A stretch of 39,419 nt of DNA, taken from positions 1-39,419 of the forward strand of contig NZAC01000063.1 of NCBI GenBank assembly GCA_002686085.1, given 5' to 3'. The notes under the pieces are model-generated. The model searched no databases, was not told where the DNA came from, and saw only the letters and a list, made by a program, of their open reading frames with translations. Within the stretch, counting starts at the first letter, position 1. Each line of letters begins with the position of its first letter. The position numbers and the translations under genes were made by a program. This DNA is from Roseibacillus sp. GTDB lineage: Bacteria; Verrucomicrobiota; Verrucomicrobiia; Verrucomicrobiales; Akkermansiaceae. This document shows, piece after piece, positions 33,708 to 39,419 of this stretch.

Positions 33708-36266
33708 TCAATTCTTGAACATCGGGTCATCGCGATCCCCGGAGGAGAGAAGGTAGGCAAGGAGATCCAGGATGTCACTATCCTCCATTGTGGAGAGCAA
33801 TCCACGAGGCATCATCGAAATGCCTGACGGCTCGATAGACACAATCTCATCTGCTTTGACTGCCCGGGTTTCGTTCGGCCGCATCATATCCGTAGTGATT
33901 CGGTAGACGTCACCTCCCGTTCCATCTCTCCTCCTGTTAAGGTTCATAATACGACCCACCACTTGGCTCCCATCCTGGAGGGTAAAAGCACTGGCGCCAT
34001 ACTGATCGCTGACTTCAGCCTCTGGCACCACGATAGATTCCAGAAGGTCGTAGGGGCTGAACTTACCATGGACAGCTGTGAGGTCGGGGCCCACAGCTCC
34101 TCCTTCTCCATCAAAGCGGTGGCAGGCATGACAACTCCCAATTCCAAACATCCTCCGCCCATTCGCGAAATTTCGGCCCCCCTCCAGCCCCGCACCCAGC
34201 AGCCCCTGCAGATCTTCCATGGCCCAATCCTTGACTACCTTACGAGGCTTGCTGCTGAACTGGGCTGGGCCCTTTTCTCCCGGGGCTCTAAACCACTTTT
34301 TGAGCTCTGCGGTCCTTTCCCCTGCCGGAATAGAAGCAATGGCGTCTCTCCGAATATCAGAGAGATAGCCCCTGAACCGAGGACCCCCGTTATAGTTTTC
34401 CGATCTGGCAAGCCACTGGAAATACTGAAGGCGCAAGGGAGGATTCCACCCCTCCTTGATGAACCGAAGGTTCATGGCATACGTAATTTGCTCTTCCTGA
34501 CTCGTCGAGGTCTCGAGGAGCATCATGGCCCTCGGGACTAGCGAGGGACTTTCAAGCGACGCCAGCAACGCCGTCAGGTCGCGGTTTTCTCGTGCTGATG
34601 CTGCCGGGTAAATATCTTCCAGCCACCTCAGGACTCGAAGACGGATTTCAGGTTCCGGCTTCCCTCCACGGGTCAAGGCCAGAGTAAGAGCCCGCAGGAG
34701 GTTGAGTCTATTCTGCTCCGCTTTAATAGCCGCATAATCAAAATCCATCACCTTGTTCATTACATCTCCAGCAGACCCCGGAGCTCCAGCCCGGGCCAGA
34801 GCGATCAGCCCAAGGCCGGCCCGATGGCAGTTTTCTTCCTTGATCACCAGCTCTCTCCACATTCCGGCCGGGTGCATTTCAAGGACGGCTCTCGCTGCGT
34901 GCCGCAGCGCACGATCATCATCTGGAGACAAGTTGCGCCAGAGATCGGCCAGCTCATTGCGTGAAAGCCGCCTCGCCCCCTCGAGAAGAAGAGATTCTAA
35001 TCCCAAGCGCTTTCTTCGAAGGTCCTGCCCCGGACGGAGTGCGGACTCCTGCACCTCTCCCGCGGCATTCCAATTGCCGCGATAGGTCACCCGATACAGC
35101 CCAGACTGCACCCGCCGCCCCCCGACGATACAATACATGGCTCCATCCTTCGGGTGAATGAGGATATCGGTTAGCGGAAAAGGGGCTCCGCTCGCGAACT
35201 CCTCAAAGCGGCCCTCGTAGGTCGAACCCTTCTCGCTGAGATGCACAGCGTAGAGTTTGCCGTAGGACCAGTCGCATACGAACAGAGCCTCCCTGTACTT
35301 TCGTGGAAACTTAGCTCCATACCCGAAACAAACTCCCGTTGGCGAACCCGGCCCAATATCTACAACTGCACCGAAGCTATCCCGAAAATGATCGGCAAAT
35401 TTGGCCGATCCAGTCCGCCACCCGAAGTCTGCTCCACTGATAACATGGTTAATTCGCGTGGGACGATACCAAGGGGTGTTCAAGTCTCCCTCCATATCCG
35501 CATCGTAGGTGAAAAGCTCCCCCTCTTCGTTAAAAGCGCCATCGTATTGATTCCGGAACCCAGTAGCAATGACCTCCCAGGTCTGCCCCTCGGGGTCAAT
35601 CCGTGCAATATGTCCCACGGGAGCTCTTACTCCCTTCATGAAGTGTTCCATCGGTGGCAACAACTGGTCCTCGCCCCAGAGCTCGGGAACGCGGGAGTGA
35701 GTAAAGTCTTTGGGGAGCCGCGTCTGGTTTCCTATCAGCACCACGAGGCCTTTCCCATCAGGAGAAGGCAGAATCGCATGGGGACCATGCTCCCCGCCAA
35801 TCGCTTCCAGTCTCCTGATAACGACCACCTTGTCGAACTTATCATCGCTATTGGTATCAAGGAGGCGGAATACGCCTGACCCAGTCTCGCTGTGACGCGA
35901 ATTCACAACCACATAGAGACTATCAAAGGCGTAGCAAAGCCCCTGAGCATGCCCAACTGGAAGATCAATCCTCTCGATCGAAGCAGGGTCGAGGCGCTTC
36001 CCCGGAGGCGGCGGAGCAAACCTGTAGAGGCCTCCATACTGATCACTGGTGATCAGCCTCCCCTTGTCATCCTGGCACATCGCCACCCACGACCCCTGCT
36101 TCGCACGGGGAACGGAATAAAGCAGTTCGACGGAAAAGCCCTCTGCCACTCTGATTCGTTCCACCGGTGTGGCCGTTCGCTGCCCGTTGAGAGGTGCCCC
36201 CAGCAGGTAGCCAAGAGAGAAAAATATAAGGCACCGGGTCATTAGAAGGTCGAGCCGAGATTCCAT
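33708..36266 (-). CDS. PVC-type membrane-bound dehydrogenase with C-terminal cytochrome c
   Basis: An 852-residue protein. The start may be ATG 36266 or, if the signal peptide is taken as MTRCLIFFSLGYLLGAPLNG, ATG 36242. The N-terminal two thirds form the beta-propeller of the PVC dehydrogenase family (RIRVAEGFSVELLYSVP, LYVVVNSRHSETGSGVFRL, RNQYDGAFNEEGELFTYDADMEGDLNTPWYRP cut across segments). HEAT-like helices follow. A C-terminal cytochrome c domain has CHACH in GIGSCHACHRFDGEGG and the LLESIVVPEAEVSDQYGA block of the family. An extracytoplasmic redox enzyme with unknown substrate; it is divergent from the ECF sigma gene across 129 bases. Confidence 0.88.
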   Translation of the reverse strand: MESRLDLLMTRCLIFFSLGYLLGAPLNGQRTATPVERIRVAEGFSVELLYSVPRAKQGSWVAMCQDDKGRLITSDQYGGLYRFAPPPPGKRLDPASIERIDLPVGHAQGLCYAFDSLYVVVNSRHSETGSGVFRLLDTNSDDKFDKVVVIRRLEAIGGEHGPHAILPSPDGKGLVVLIGNQTRLPKDFTHSRVPELWGEDQLLPPMEHFMKGVRAPVGHIARIDPEGQTWEVIATGFRNQYDGAFNEEGELFTYDADMEGDLNTPWYRPTRINHVISGADFGWRTGSAKFADHFRDSFGAVVDIGPGSPTGVCFGYGAKFPRKYREALFVCDWSYGKLYAVHLSEKGSTYEGRFEEFASGAPFPLTDILIHPKDGAMYCIVGGRRVQSGLYRVTYRGNWNAAGEVQESALRPGQDLRRKRLGLESLLLEGARRLSRNELADLWRNLSPDDDRALRHAARAVLEMHPAGMWRELVIKEENCHRAGLGLIALARAGAPGSAGDVMNKVMDFDYAAIKAEQNRLNLLRALTLALTRGGKPEPEIRLRVLRWLEDIYPAASARENRDLTALLASLESPSLVPRAMMLLETSTSQEEQITYAMNLRFIKEGWNPPLRLQYFQWLARSENYNGGPRFRGYLSDIRRDAIASIPAGERTAELKKWFRAPGEKGPAQFSSKPRKVVKDWAMEDLQGLLGAGLEGGRNFANGRRMFGIGSCHACHRFDGEGGAVGPDLTAVHGKFSPYDLLESIVVPEAEVSDQYGASAFTLQDGSQVVGRIMNLNRRRDGTGGDVYRITTDMMRPNETRAVKADEIVSIEPSGISMMPRGLLSTMEDSDILDLLAYLLSSGDRDDPMFKN

Positions 36267-36395
36267 ATTTATGGCTTCTGCGCCAGTGCAATTGTCCCCC
36301 TCTTCCCTCGAATTCTCTGGTCTAAGGGCATCCCCTGATTTGTCACTTGCCGAACCGCTCTCTGCCCGCTCCTCTTCCAGACTGACCCCCTGCGC

Positions 36396-37004
36396 ATGGA
36401 ACCGGAGCCTCCCACGATCTCAAAAGAGCTGCTTGCTGCAGTCAAAGAGGGAGACGAATCTGCTAACAGGTCACTGGTGGAAATTCTCTATCCTGCAGTT
36501 CGAGCCAATGTGCGCAACCACCTCCGAAAGAGGGCAGATCACGACGATGTCACCCAGGAAATCTTCCTGAAAATCTTCCTGAAAATTGAGCAGTATCGGG
36601 GACCCCAGCCATTTGTCCACTGGGTGTCTCGTATCGCAGTCACCACTTGCTACGACTGGTTACGCAAACAACGAGTACGCCCTCTGGTCGCATATTCTGA
36701 CCTGAGTGAGCCCGAGGTCGCTGTCATTGAGAACAGCCTGAAAGTAACCAAGGCAGAAACCTCAGATACCCAGAGAGAGCTTTTCTCCGGCCTTCTTGAA
36801 AAACTCATCGCTACCCTGAAGCCAAGGGAGCAGATCGTCATTCGGCTTCTCGACCTGGAAGAGCGCTCCGTTCGTGAGATCGAGGCCCTCACCGGATGGG
36901 GCTCGAGCAAAATCAAGGTAACCGCGATGAGGGCACGCCGCAAATTGGCGGAGCAGATCAAACAACTTGAGATGCAATCTCAGGGAGACCCCGAAACCAT
37001 TTGA
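36396..37004 (+). CDS. ECF RNA polymerase sigma factor
   Basis: A 202-residue extracytoplasmic-function sigma factor. Region sigma2 is visible around residues 25-95 (DDVTQEIFLKIFLKIEQYRG, WVSRIAVTTCYDWLRKQR). Region sigma4 lies around 145-195 (LKPREQIVIRLLDLEERSVREIEALTGWGSSKIKVTAMRARRKL). There is no sigma3, as usual for the class. The next two genes encode a small single-TM protein and a membrane-anchored helical periplasmic protein, 22 bases and 0 bases apart, an arrangement like cnrH-cnrY-cnrX. It probably directs transcription of envelope or metal-stress genes once released from the membrane. Confidence 0.92.
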   Translation: MEPEPPTISKELLAAVKEGDESANRSLVEILYPAVRANVRNHLRKRADHDDVTQEIFLKIFLKIEQYRGPQPFVHWVSRIAVTTCYDWLRKQRVRPLVAYSDLSEPEVAVIENSLKVTKAETSDTQRELFSGLLEKLIATLKPREQIVIRLLDLEERSVREIEALTGWGSSKIKVTAMRARRKLAEQIKQLEMQSQGDPETI

Positions 37005-37026
37005 ATTTCCACTACCACAGTAATCA

Positions 37027-37332
37027 ATGCCTGAGCCAGAGAAAGAAAATCAATGGAGCCGTCTTGTAGACGCCGCTCGAGACGCAGGTGCGACAACCCG
37101 GGAAGAACAGCACGATGCTGCGCCCTCGACCTTCATCTCCCGAGTTATTACACTGAGGAAGGGCCTCTGGAAGTTTGCGAGAACCGTACTCTGGCGACGT
37201 TGGTCGCTGGTCGCGGCTCTTCTGGCCCTGCTCCTCTACCTAACCTTCTTCCTGATTTTACGATCTACTTCACCCAGCTCTATTCCATCCCCAGCACCTT
37301 TGTTCCTTCCCCAGCCACCCGATCCTGAATAG
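37027..37332 (+). CDS. small single-TM protein, candidate anti-sigma factor
   Basis: A 101-residue protein. Residues 1-~58 are polar and probably cytoplasmic, with a short helix-like opening (ENQWSRLVDAARDAGA). Basic residues (FARTVLWRRW) precede one TM helix (about 60-78, SLVAALLALLLYLTFFLIL), which by the positive-inside rule puts the N-terminus inside. The C-terminal ~20 residues are proline-rich and outside. This matches the size and topology of single-TM anti-sigma factors such as CnrY (a short cytoplasmic sigma-binding segment plus one TM). The sequence itself has no family signature that I recognise, so the role is inferred from position and topology. Confidence 0.6.
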   Translation: MPEPEKENQWSRLVDAARDAGATTREEQHDAAPSTFISRVITLRKGLWKFARTVLWRRWSLVAALLALLLYLTFFLILRSTSPSSIPSPAPLFLPQPPDPE

Positions 37333-37722
37333 ATGAAGCCCACCTTTAAACACTATCTCAGTATTGCCTTTGCCCTGCTCGCGATCTTCCTTTGCGGGTA
37401 TGGGATAGGATTTCTTCTGGGCGAACGGAAGGGAAGCCAGCCCCAGTCCACATCCCATACCAAGGTGTCCGGCAGTCCCAGCAGCCGCGATTTCGATTGG
37501 GCGACCTGGGAACGTTCAACCAGTCGTGTCATTGAGAACGCGATCCGCGATTTGACCCCGGAGCAGATGCAGGCAATCCACGTTGAGATCGCAAAAACCT
37601 CAGAGCGCATCAGGGCTGCAAGGCAATTAGGGCGAAAGGAGTTCCGGGACCTCAACGAGCGCCTCAGGCAACACCTGACTCCGGAGCAGCAGACCCAGCT
37701 CCCCGGGGCCTCCCCCGATTGA
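37333..37722 (+). CDS. membrane-anchored Spy/CnrX-like periplasmic sensor candidate
   Basis: A 129-residue protein directly abutting the previous stop. TM or signal anchor lies at about residues 7-29 (YLSIAFALLAIFLCGYGIGFLL), then an extracytoplasmic helical part. Two LTPEQ segments (LTPEQMQAIHVEIAKTSERI and HLTPEQQTQL) flank a basic helix, the pattern of the LTxxQ/Spy or heavy-metal resistance (CnrX/NccX-like) periplasmic families. Those proteins form helical hairpins and in CnrX bind metal and control the anti-sigma. It lacks the His cluster of CnrX, so the ligand may differ. Confidence 0.6.
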   Translation: MKPTFKHYLSIAFALLAIFLCGYGIGFLLGERKGSQPQSTSHTKVSGSPSSRDFDWATWERSTSRVIENAIRDLTPEQMQAIHVEIAKTSERIRAARQLGRKEFRDLNERLRQHLTPEQQTQLPGASPD

Positions 37723-37803
37723 GGGAGAGCTCGAAGACATTTATACTCTTCCCGAGGCTCATCTGTAACTCCCTCGGCAACTTACTCGTCAGCCTTATCT
37801 GAG

Positions 37804-37961: not shown

Positions 37962-38722
37962 ATGAAGCTTAGTAACTTAATATTTGGCGTGGCCCTGCTT
38001 CTGGTCGCGGCCACGCTAGCTCTGACCATCACTTTCAGGAAGAGTCCTGATGAAGGAGATAACGTCGCTCTACCTGGGGGAAGGCGAAATACTCCAAACG
38101 CGAAACGGGATCTCTCCCCTCAAGAACTTCAGCGAGCCCAGCAGCCATGCGCTCTAACCCAACCCGCGGGTCACAGCCGCGACTGCCCAAGGTCGAAGAG
38201 TTGGAAGTAACGATCGATGATGGCCCGGCAACCCAAGGGATGACACCCGCACAGCGTCAGGATGTGGCCAAACGCCTCCCATGGGTGAGGAAAAATGCGC
38301 TCTCACGCCTGAGCCGGATGACAGATCGACTGGACCTTACCCCGGCACAACGCCAAAAGGTGTTTCCCCAGCTCCTCCGGTCGACCAATGGCTACCACCC
38401 GGCAATGATCATCAGTTACCCCCCTCAAGTTGCTGCGCCGCCGGAGAGCCTCGCCGAGAGCGAGAAAACACCGGACGAAGCCATCCACGATTCCCTCGAT
38501 CCCGAGCAACAAGATGATTTCATCCAGCAAAAATTGGACGATCAGGCCTGGTGGGAGGAAATCGTCGCTCAATTGGAAGAAGATTTTGATGCCTCGGTCA
38601 CCACTGACGAGGACGCAGTAGCAGCAGGGCAAGCTCCTCCCTCGCCCGGCCAGAGCACCACCCCTCAAGCTGAACCTCAGCCCCAGCAAGGAATAAACCT
38701 TTTTGACCTGCTTGACGAATGA
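37962..38722 (+). pseudogene. membrane-anchored LTPAQ-motif protein, apparently frameshifted
   Basis: Two overlapping frames look like one gene. From ATG 37962 there is an N-terminal TM/signal segment (LSNLIFGVALLLVAATLALTI) and a polar stretch with DLSPQELQRAQQP. This frame ends at 38210 with an unconvincing tail. From about 38147 another frame carries the conserved body: MTPAQRQDVAKRL, LDLTPAQRQKVFPQLLRSTNGYHP and an acidic C-terminus ending NLFDLLDE at 38722. The LTPAQ hairpin is the pattern of Spy-like periplasmic proteins. The crossover lies near 38140-38200. Alternatives are a true overlapping gene pair, programmed frameshifting, or a sequencing error. Joined, the product is about 250 residues. 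Confidence 0.55.
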
Positions 38723-38796
38723 ACCGATTTAAGGTGTAACCATACTCCCTTAGGGCCTGTCAGACGGAAAAAGAACGCCAGTTCCCTTCAATTATC

Positions 38797-39419
38797 ATGA
38801 AACTAAACTACCTAGCCCTTGCCAGCCTTACCCTTGGCATTGGCCTTGCCAACGCTGACCGTGACCGGACCTTCGGTAACGGAGAGCTGCCTGAAATGCT
38901 CGAGCAGTTCGATCTCAACGAAGATGGGGCTATTGATGAGGAAGAGCGCCAAGCTGCCAAGGAAGCTCGCAGAGCCGCCCGGGCAGAACGTCGTGAAGCA
39001 CACATTGCAGAATTCGATACGGATGGTGATGGAGAGCTCTCCGACGAAGAGCGGGAAGGAGCCCGGGACGCCCGGAGGGCAGCCCTGCAGGAGAGAAGGG
39101 AAGCAAAATTTGCCGAGATCGCTGGTGAAGACGGCTGTCTCGATGCAGACGAATTTGCCGCTCTCCCTCCACTGGAGGGCAGAAATGCTGAGCGCGTAGC
39201 TGCAATCTTTGACCGACTTGACTCTGATGAAGATGAGTGCGTCAGCCTCGAGGAGTTCACCGCCCGCCTCCGCCACCACCGGAAGCCCGGCGGACATCGT
39301 CCTGCACCTCCAGAGCGCCCCGAGCGCCCTGCACTTCCAGAGCGTCCCGAGCGTCCTGCACTTCCAGAGCGCCCCGAGCGTCCTGCACTTCCAGAGCGCC
39401 CCGAGCGTCCTGCACTTCC
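38797..39419 (+). CDS. secreted EF-hand calcium-binding protein with PERPERPAL repeats, 3' end missing
   Basis: The frame is open to the window end, so the C-terminus is missing. It begins with a signal peptide (MKLNYLALASLTLGIGLANA). Four EF-hand loops are visible: D39-E50 (DLNEDGAIDEEE), D74-E85 (DTDGDGELSDEE), a degenerate I108-E119, and D142-E153 (DSDEDECVSLEE). Highly charged Arg/Ala/Glu helices lie between them. From residue ~169 a proline-rich PERPERPAL repeat runs off the end. Secreted EF-hand proteins with LTxxQ or sigma neighbours are common in PVC genomes; here it follows the ECF/Spy-like module and may be one of its outputs. Confidence 0.85.
   Translation, partial: MKLNYLALASLTLGIGLANADRDRTFGNGELPEMLEQFDLNEDGAIDEEERQAAKEARRAARAERREAHIAEFDTDGDGELSDEEREGARDARRAALQERREAKFAEIAGEDGCLDADEFAALPPLEGRNAERVAAIFDRLDSDEDECVSLEEFTARLRHHRKPGGHRPAPPERPERPALPERPERPALPERPERPALPERPERPAL
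39301..39419 (+). repeat. 27-base tandem repeat coding PERPERPAL
   Basis: Units of CCTGCACYTCCAGAGCGYCC plus CGAGCGY (27 bases) begin at 39301, 39328, 39355, 39382 and 39409, the last cut by the window end. The unit codes Pro-Ala-(Leu/Pro)-Pro-Glu-Arg-Pro-Glu-Arg. Frame is kept, so length variation is tolerated. Confidence 0.9.

Follow-up and report, generated by a model that had tools for sequence, protein, structure and literature searches.

A conserved ECF sigma factor locus of Verrucomicrobiota with a likely short anti-sigma factor, a likely periplasmic sensor and a candidate EF-hand regulon

Introduction

Many LTXXQ proteins of the bacterial envelope are stress-induced chaperones. In the CnrYXH system of Cupriavidus metallidurans, the anti-sigma factor CnrY, which belongs to class II, wraps its sigma factor with two helices, helix 1 lying on sigma4 and helix 2 on sigma2 (PMC7406223; PMC4598750), and the sigma factor CnrH is freed when either CnrY or the periplasmic protein CnrX is lost (PMC4803752). 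In Caulobacter, a periplasmic EF-hand gene is switched on by the sigma factor SigV when calcium is depleted, and the link to the membrane is unknown (PMC13171946). Here, we describe a locus that encodes an ECF sigma factor followed by two small membrane proteins, Y and X. In the literature searched, there was no publication on a sigma-Y-X module and no such system was described in Verrucomicrobiota.

Results

Sigma, Y and X are genuine genes

The window, i.e. the whole stretch of DNA analysed, is a contig of 39,419 nt (C63) from a genome of 3.95 Mb in 73 contigs, and the named genomes closest to it are Roseibacillus and Akkermansiaceae metagenome-assembled genomes. Its features are listed in Table 1. 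When their coordinates were re-read, the three open reading frames had the lengths, strand and spacing described in the original prediction, i.e. sigma, Y and X are co-directional and separated by gaps of 22 and 0 bases. In comparisons with 11 congeners, pN/pS was 0.03-0.26 for sigma, 0.18-0.38 for Y and, counting comparisons with pS > 0.2, 0.20-0.38 for X. Because synonymous changes are in excess in all three genes, Y and X are real proteins, and we conclude that sigma, Y and X are genuine genes under purifying selection. Upstream of sigma lies a divergent gene (33708-36266, minus strand) for an 852-aa protein with a CHACH motif that is c-type cytochrome-like; it occupies this place in Roseibacillus and is absent from it in other genera.

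Table 1. Features of the locus in the 39,419-nt window
Feature	Position	Strand	Support
Degenerate promoter copy/conserved block 5' of sigma	36338..36354	+	Footprint in 11 congeners; full match in L072
ECF sigma factor, 202 aa	36396..37004	+	Pfam and NCBIfam matches above cut-off
Y, 101 aa, single-TM, proposed anti-sigma factor	37027..37332	+	Kept in 49/51 loci; pN/pS
X, 129 aa, membrane-anchored, periplasmic, proposed co-sensor	37333..37722	+	Alignments; AlphaFold helices; TM conservation
Predicted promoter TGTAAC-N17-CGTC upstream of D	37764..37790	+	Pattern count in window; conservation in congeners
D, ~253 aa, TM-anchored X paralogue, frameshifted	37962..38722	+	Intact copies in relatives; profile match
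Predicted promoter TGTAAC-N17-TGTC upstream of EF-hand gene	38735..38761	+	CGTC in congeners
Secreted EF-hand protein gene, contig ends inside	38797..39419	+	Pfam EF-hand_1, E 3e-11

The gene order is conserved

A sigma-profile scan of 84,980 species genomes returned 59 loci, 51 of them usable. All except one were from Verrucomicrobiota or relatives (58/59), the exception being a 44-residue match in a gammaproteobacterium (L120). In the 51 Verrucomicrobiales loci, profile HMMs detected Y and X in 49 each and D in 48, in the same order and all on the sigma strand, and an EF-hand gene usually follows D. Overlap of the sigma stop codon with the start codon of Y is common, and 4-base ATGA overlaps are frequent between genes of the module. 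Since the sigma-Y-X order is kept in 49 of these 51 related loci, the arrangement is not due to chance. Moreover, when 288 genomes of the phylum were searched, the X profile matched in 48, and sigma, a single-TM Y and X occurred in this order in 10 of the 11 loci inspected thereafter, other orders and classes included; within the family, X is present in 42 of 195 genomes. Thus, conservation of the triplet in related genomes, to which the original prediction was tied, was found by sequence comparison both in close relatives and phylum-wide. In two loci (L096 and L112), sigma is followed directly by D, neither Y nor X is present, and a gene of the EF-hand type with the promoter motif described below comes after; the sigma factor is therefore able to exist without both proteins.

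Y has the likely layout of a class II anti-sigma factor

The sigma factor matches Sigma70_r2 (E 6e-13) and Sigma70_r4_2 (E 3e-9) of Pfam as well as the sigma70-ECF family of NCBIfam, all above cut-off. Aligned with CnrH by hhalign, it scores 97% (E 3e-11), and its modelled region 4 superposes on that of CnrH with an rmsd of 1.4 over 67 residues; its sequence is closer to the structures of RpoE, AlgU and SigW than to CnrH. It may fall in an ECF group that already has a number.

As originally described, Y has a single hydrophobic segment behind a cytoplasmic N-terminus of ~58 residues. It begins with a conserved cytoplasmic helix 1 (residues 6-19, about 37042-37083) with the motif W-x-R-L-V-D-A-A, followed by a variable linker and by helix 2, which runs through a positively charged WRRW or WRKW into the TM segment (about residues 59-79, 37201-37263); a Pro-rich periplasmic tail of ~22 residues ends the protein. 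CnrY similarly has almost no periplasmic part. With class I anti-sigma factors of the RseA type, Y shares the single TM segment and the cytoplasmic, sigma-facing N-terminus; however, RseA and the ZAS proteins have a four-helix domain of ~100 residues (average 101, PMC7406223) in place of the ~58 residues of Y. Y matched no anti-sigma family of Pfam and lacks the zinc motif, and neither Y nor X matched any family of Pfam or NCBIfam above cut-off. Likewise, hhalign detected no homology between Y and CnrY (probability 0.2%).

For structure prediction with AlphaFold, we used the L064 copy, in which sigma and Y form a natural read-through fusion (stop read as Gly); in the window, sigma and Y are out of frame with each other, and the Y copy of L064/L005 is 89% identical. 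The model contains two Y helices (fusion residues 217-230 and 245-291). It has a pTM of 0.43 and a pLDDT of about 55-63 in Y helix 1, and the interface is modelled without confidence; fold comparison recovers the sigma domains alone, and the arrangement of sigma2 and sigma4 is unlike any known complex. In total, the predicted helices and topology indicate that Y likely shares the architecture of class II anti-sigma factors.

A conserved promoter motif precedes D and the EF-hand gene

In an alignment of the intergenic regions of congeners, TGTAAC and CGTC are invariant upstream of both D and the EF-hand gene, and the spacer sequences have diverged. TGTAAC-N17-YGTC occurs twice in the window, exactly before these two genes (0.01 expected), and 8 times in the entire 3.95-Mb genome, compared with 13 for the reversed control; because the motif is rarer than its control in the genome, the pair of sites beside sigma stands out. 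In the 51 loci, TGTAAC-N16/17-CGTC has 70 sites on the sigma strand and none on the opposite one (shuffle mean 0.95), and a non-redundant set of 28 loci (<85% sigma identity, 251 kb) gave 40 forward and 0 reverse sites. By target, in part assigned by eye, the 70 sites precede ~39 EF-hand genes, 12 D genes, 12 sigma starts, 4 subtilase genes and 1 CotH gene; the remaining 2 lie inside the sigma coding sequence (L093 and L094) and were taken as chance matches. EF-hand genes are thus the commonest target in relatives, and they bear the motif even 2 kb upstream of sigma or as a second copy: in L067, L070, L071 and L073, an EF-hand paralogue with its own promoter copy lies ~4.3 kb past the sigma start.

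Sites at the sigma start lie between -43 and -66 in the diverged clades, and two loci from outside the order have one at -61, which ties the motif to this sigma factor. In the window, a conserved block upstream of sigma, ATTTG..ACTTGCCGAA, reads TGTCAC-N17-GCCC, i.e. a degenerate promoter copy, and in the congener L072 the match at the same spot, at -62, is complete. The poor match of the Roseibacillus sigma promoter, together with the ten region-4.2 sigma matches in the genome of origin, could mean that TGTAAC-N17-CGTC is read by another ECF sigma factor and that this one has other targets. We regard this as improbable: the motif lies at the start of this sigma gene in many clades, also outside the order, and always on the sigma strand; moreover, genomes with X are richer in sites, the stricter TGTAACC-N16-CGTC occurring 2.6 times per family genome with X vs 0.36 times in those without (Mann-Whitney p 6e-6, uncorrected for relatedness).

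Away from the locus, a site shared by the genome of origin (G000:C6:32388-32414, L122) and a close relative (G046:C36:2471-2497, L139) precedes the gene for a secreted TSP3-repeat protein, a likely further member of the regulon. Other unlinked sites precede matrixin, CotH and EF-hand genes. Genes of the CotH kinase family stand behind the same promoter in L010 (G099) and L140 (G037), in one genome directly after X. In total, the shared ECF-type promoter motif gives good support to the suggestion, made from the window alone, that the LTPAQ gene (D) and the EF-hand gene form the regulon, and on the strength of its conservation both are very probably targets.

D is related to X

D is TM-anchored, longer than X, and has two LTxxQ-like motifs. 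In the window it is broken into two frames (37962-38210 and 38147-38722) at a run of 5 G (38076-38080), where relatives, including L062/G106, have 6; intact copies of 253 aa occur in G106, G046 and G062. Because D is intact in all close relatives, the break is either an error of sequencing or a recent frameshift. Profile-profile comparison by hhalign matched X and D over the LTxxQ region (E 1.5e-5, probability 80%), and it alone supports their kinship, single-round HMM matches being weak (E 0.02-10).

The EF-hand gene closes with PERPERPAL repeats (39260-39419) at the contig end, and this repeat probably broke the assembly. In many genomes, the EF-hand gene is followed by a gene for a conserved secreted protein of ~330 aa with the pattern YFTDFDDFPEG..NxW and no Pfam match (L062:8174-9199, L080:7870-8886, L109:7862-8812).

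X differs from CnrX and is a distant relative of the LTXXQ proteins

X follows the pattern MKP....Y..I..AL.AIFLCGYGIGFLLGE, a low-complexity linker and a pair of LTPEQ motifs. Its N-terminal TM segment (about residues 9-30, 37357-37422) is G.G.G-rich, and the LTPEQ motifs, at residues 74-78 (37552-37566) and 115-119 (37675-37689), are spaced by 41 residues, the two segments having been read from the sequence at the outset. AlphaFold predicts helices at residues 56-70 and 76-112 with a pLDDT of mostly 87-96, i.e. one helix between the motifs, whereas CnrX, a four-helix hook, has about 78 residues and two long helices between its LTxxQ-like motifs. The TM segment is the most conserved region of X, with a mean pairwise identity of 0.71 vs 0.37-0.43 in the periplasmic part, suggesting that it has a role beyond anchoring.

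With Spy, CpxP and ZraP (LTXXQ) and with Metal_resist proteins, X shares the two LTPEQ motifs and a helical periplasmic domain; it differs in being shorter, TM-anchored and operonic with sigma and Y, and in scoring below the family cut-offs. Against LTXXQ (PF07813), X reached 13 bits at a curated cut-off of 24.3, and the best relatives of X examined in detail reached 20.3 and 21.3 bits at cut-offs of 24.3 and 29.2 (LTXXQ and Metal_resist, respectively). Metal_resist (PF13801) gave weak matches in 7 of 38 X members (best E 1.2e-4) and no match in a search of the genome of origin. In a PDB search, the X profile matched Spy weakly (E 0.16-1.4) and did not recover CnrX at E 10; Foldseek with the X model, a helical hairpin too short to be informative in such a search, returned no significant match, neither CnrX nor Spy; and hhalign of X with CnrX aligned the TM segment alone (0.9%), no homology being detected. 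At the level of sequence, X is thus a sub-threshold relative of the LTXXQ and Metal_resist families and no closer, and the original description of X as Spy/CnrX-like holds for its LTPEQ motifs and does not extend to family membership or to homology with CnrX.

These comparisons bear on whether the module is genuinely related to CnrYXH and senses Ni/Co or a different transition metal. Three matching kinds of protein of similar sizes, along with the weak Metal_resist matches, would fit such a sensor. By contrast, Y and X show no homology to their Cnr counterparts in hhalign, and all Metal_resist matches examined in detail stay under the curated cut-off. Moreover, the His/Met/Glu metal-binding cluster of CnrX has no equivalent in X: the X alignment contains no conserved His/Met/Cys cluster, and H114 is its sole nearly invariant His, as had been anticipated. 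Finally, the gene order is sigma-Y-X, and the predicted output consists of EF-hand and further secreted proteins in place of RND efflux. Altogether, we consider a transition-metal sensor of this descent very improbable.

Alternatively, Y alone would be the anti-sigma factor, cut by regulated intramembrane proteolysis, and X and D would be CpxP/Spy-like envelope chaperones and not sensors. X and D are related and D bears a sigma-type promoter, as expected of a target. However, X has no visible promoter of its own, and in every locus inspected it either overlaps Y or adjoins it and is read in the direction of sigma; the short Pro-rich tail of Y is poorly suited to receive a signal or a site-1 protease; and a TM segment that is better conserved than the periplasmic part is unlike a plain membrane anchor. 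A chaperone role for X in place of sensing is therefore doubtful in our view.

The betaproteobacterial sigma/DUF3619/DUF3106 set, which we took to be a possible match to the module, was rejected, as the matches were weak only (DUF3619 in 2 of 19, E 0.16; DUF3106 in 3 of 38, E 0.019); a separate DUF3619 search gave no match anywhere and is uninformative, and the literature searched contained no paper on DUF3619 or DUF3106.

Discussion

The locus resembles CnrYXH in combining, in one operon, an ECF sigma factor, a short single-TM protein with two cytoplasmic helices and a membrane-anchored periplasmic protein of the LTxxQ type. It differs in gene order and output, i.e. Y-X-sigma followed by RND efflux on pMOL28 compared with sigma-Y-X-D-EF-hand here, with D and EF-hand genes as predicted targets. 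The proposal of a CnrYXH-like module therefore stands for the conserved three-gene set and for the class II layout of Y, and falls for homology of Y and X, for gene order and for the helices of X. We conclude that CnrYXH is a good working analogy, that the module is not a CnrYXH homologue, and that it is a variant of ECF signalling of an already known type.

We consider it probable that the sigma factor is held at the inner membrane by Y and X, and that its release turns on the TGTAAC-N16/17-CGTC regulon. In this mechanism, Y, likely a short two-helix anti-sigma factor, would keep the sigma factor inactive at the inner membrane, and X, likely the sensor, would work jointly with Y from the periplasmic side of the same membrane. 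Because Y is nearly without a periplasmic domain, a signal from outside must come through X, or perhaps D, and because X always adjoins Y, it is the natural signal partner; the signal would be relayed via the TM segments. We infer that Y binds the sigma factor, that Y and X form a complex, and that the signal is an envelope or divalent-cation cue, the ligand possibly being calcium, the sensing of which would free the sigma factor. The freed sigma factor would then read TGTAAC-N16/17-CGTC promoters, with D (likely for feedback or as a chaperone) and secreted EF-hand proteins as outputs; many clades would add the gene for the sigma factor to these targets, and some clades genes for secreted subtilase, matrixin or CotH proteins. 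Against this mechanism speak the degenerate copy of the sigma promoter in Roseibacillus, the ten region-4.2 sigma matches in the genome of origin, the two loci in which sigma occurs without Y and X (L096 and L112), and the sigma-Y model, which supports no interface.

In SigV-CaBP of Caulobacter vibrioides, an ECF sigma factor also activates a neighbouring secreted EF-hand gene, as the motif predicts here; in contrast, no Y/X pair is reported for it, and its promoter has GGAAA at -35 and CGTTCA at -10 (PMC13171946). Together with this analogy, the targets suggest a link to calcium. The module might be a calcium response specific to Verrucomicrobiota, in which the EF-hand protein, X or D gauges the calcium outside the cell or the calcium load of secreted proteins, and EF-hand, TSP3-repeat, subtilase, matrixin and CotH proteins would form its regulon; we put this forward as a tentative and, at present, rather unlikely reading.

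Short class II anti-sigma factors are hard to detect by sequence, and here a likely one is the conserved companion of an ECF sigma factor, with a plausible sensor as its partner and a promoter whose pattern is specific enough for targets to be listed. All parts, from the sigma factor and the anti-sigma pair to the promoter and its output, can be tested in Escherichia coli from synthetic genes, with no need for the uncultured host. If the calcium reading is true, the system would provide a membrane link of the sort that is missing, and has been proposed, for SigV-CaBP of Caulobacter. The predicted output, EF-hand and further calcium-binding proteins that are secreted, raises a concrete question about the physiology of these bacteria.
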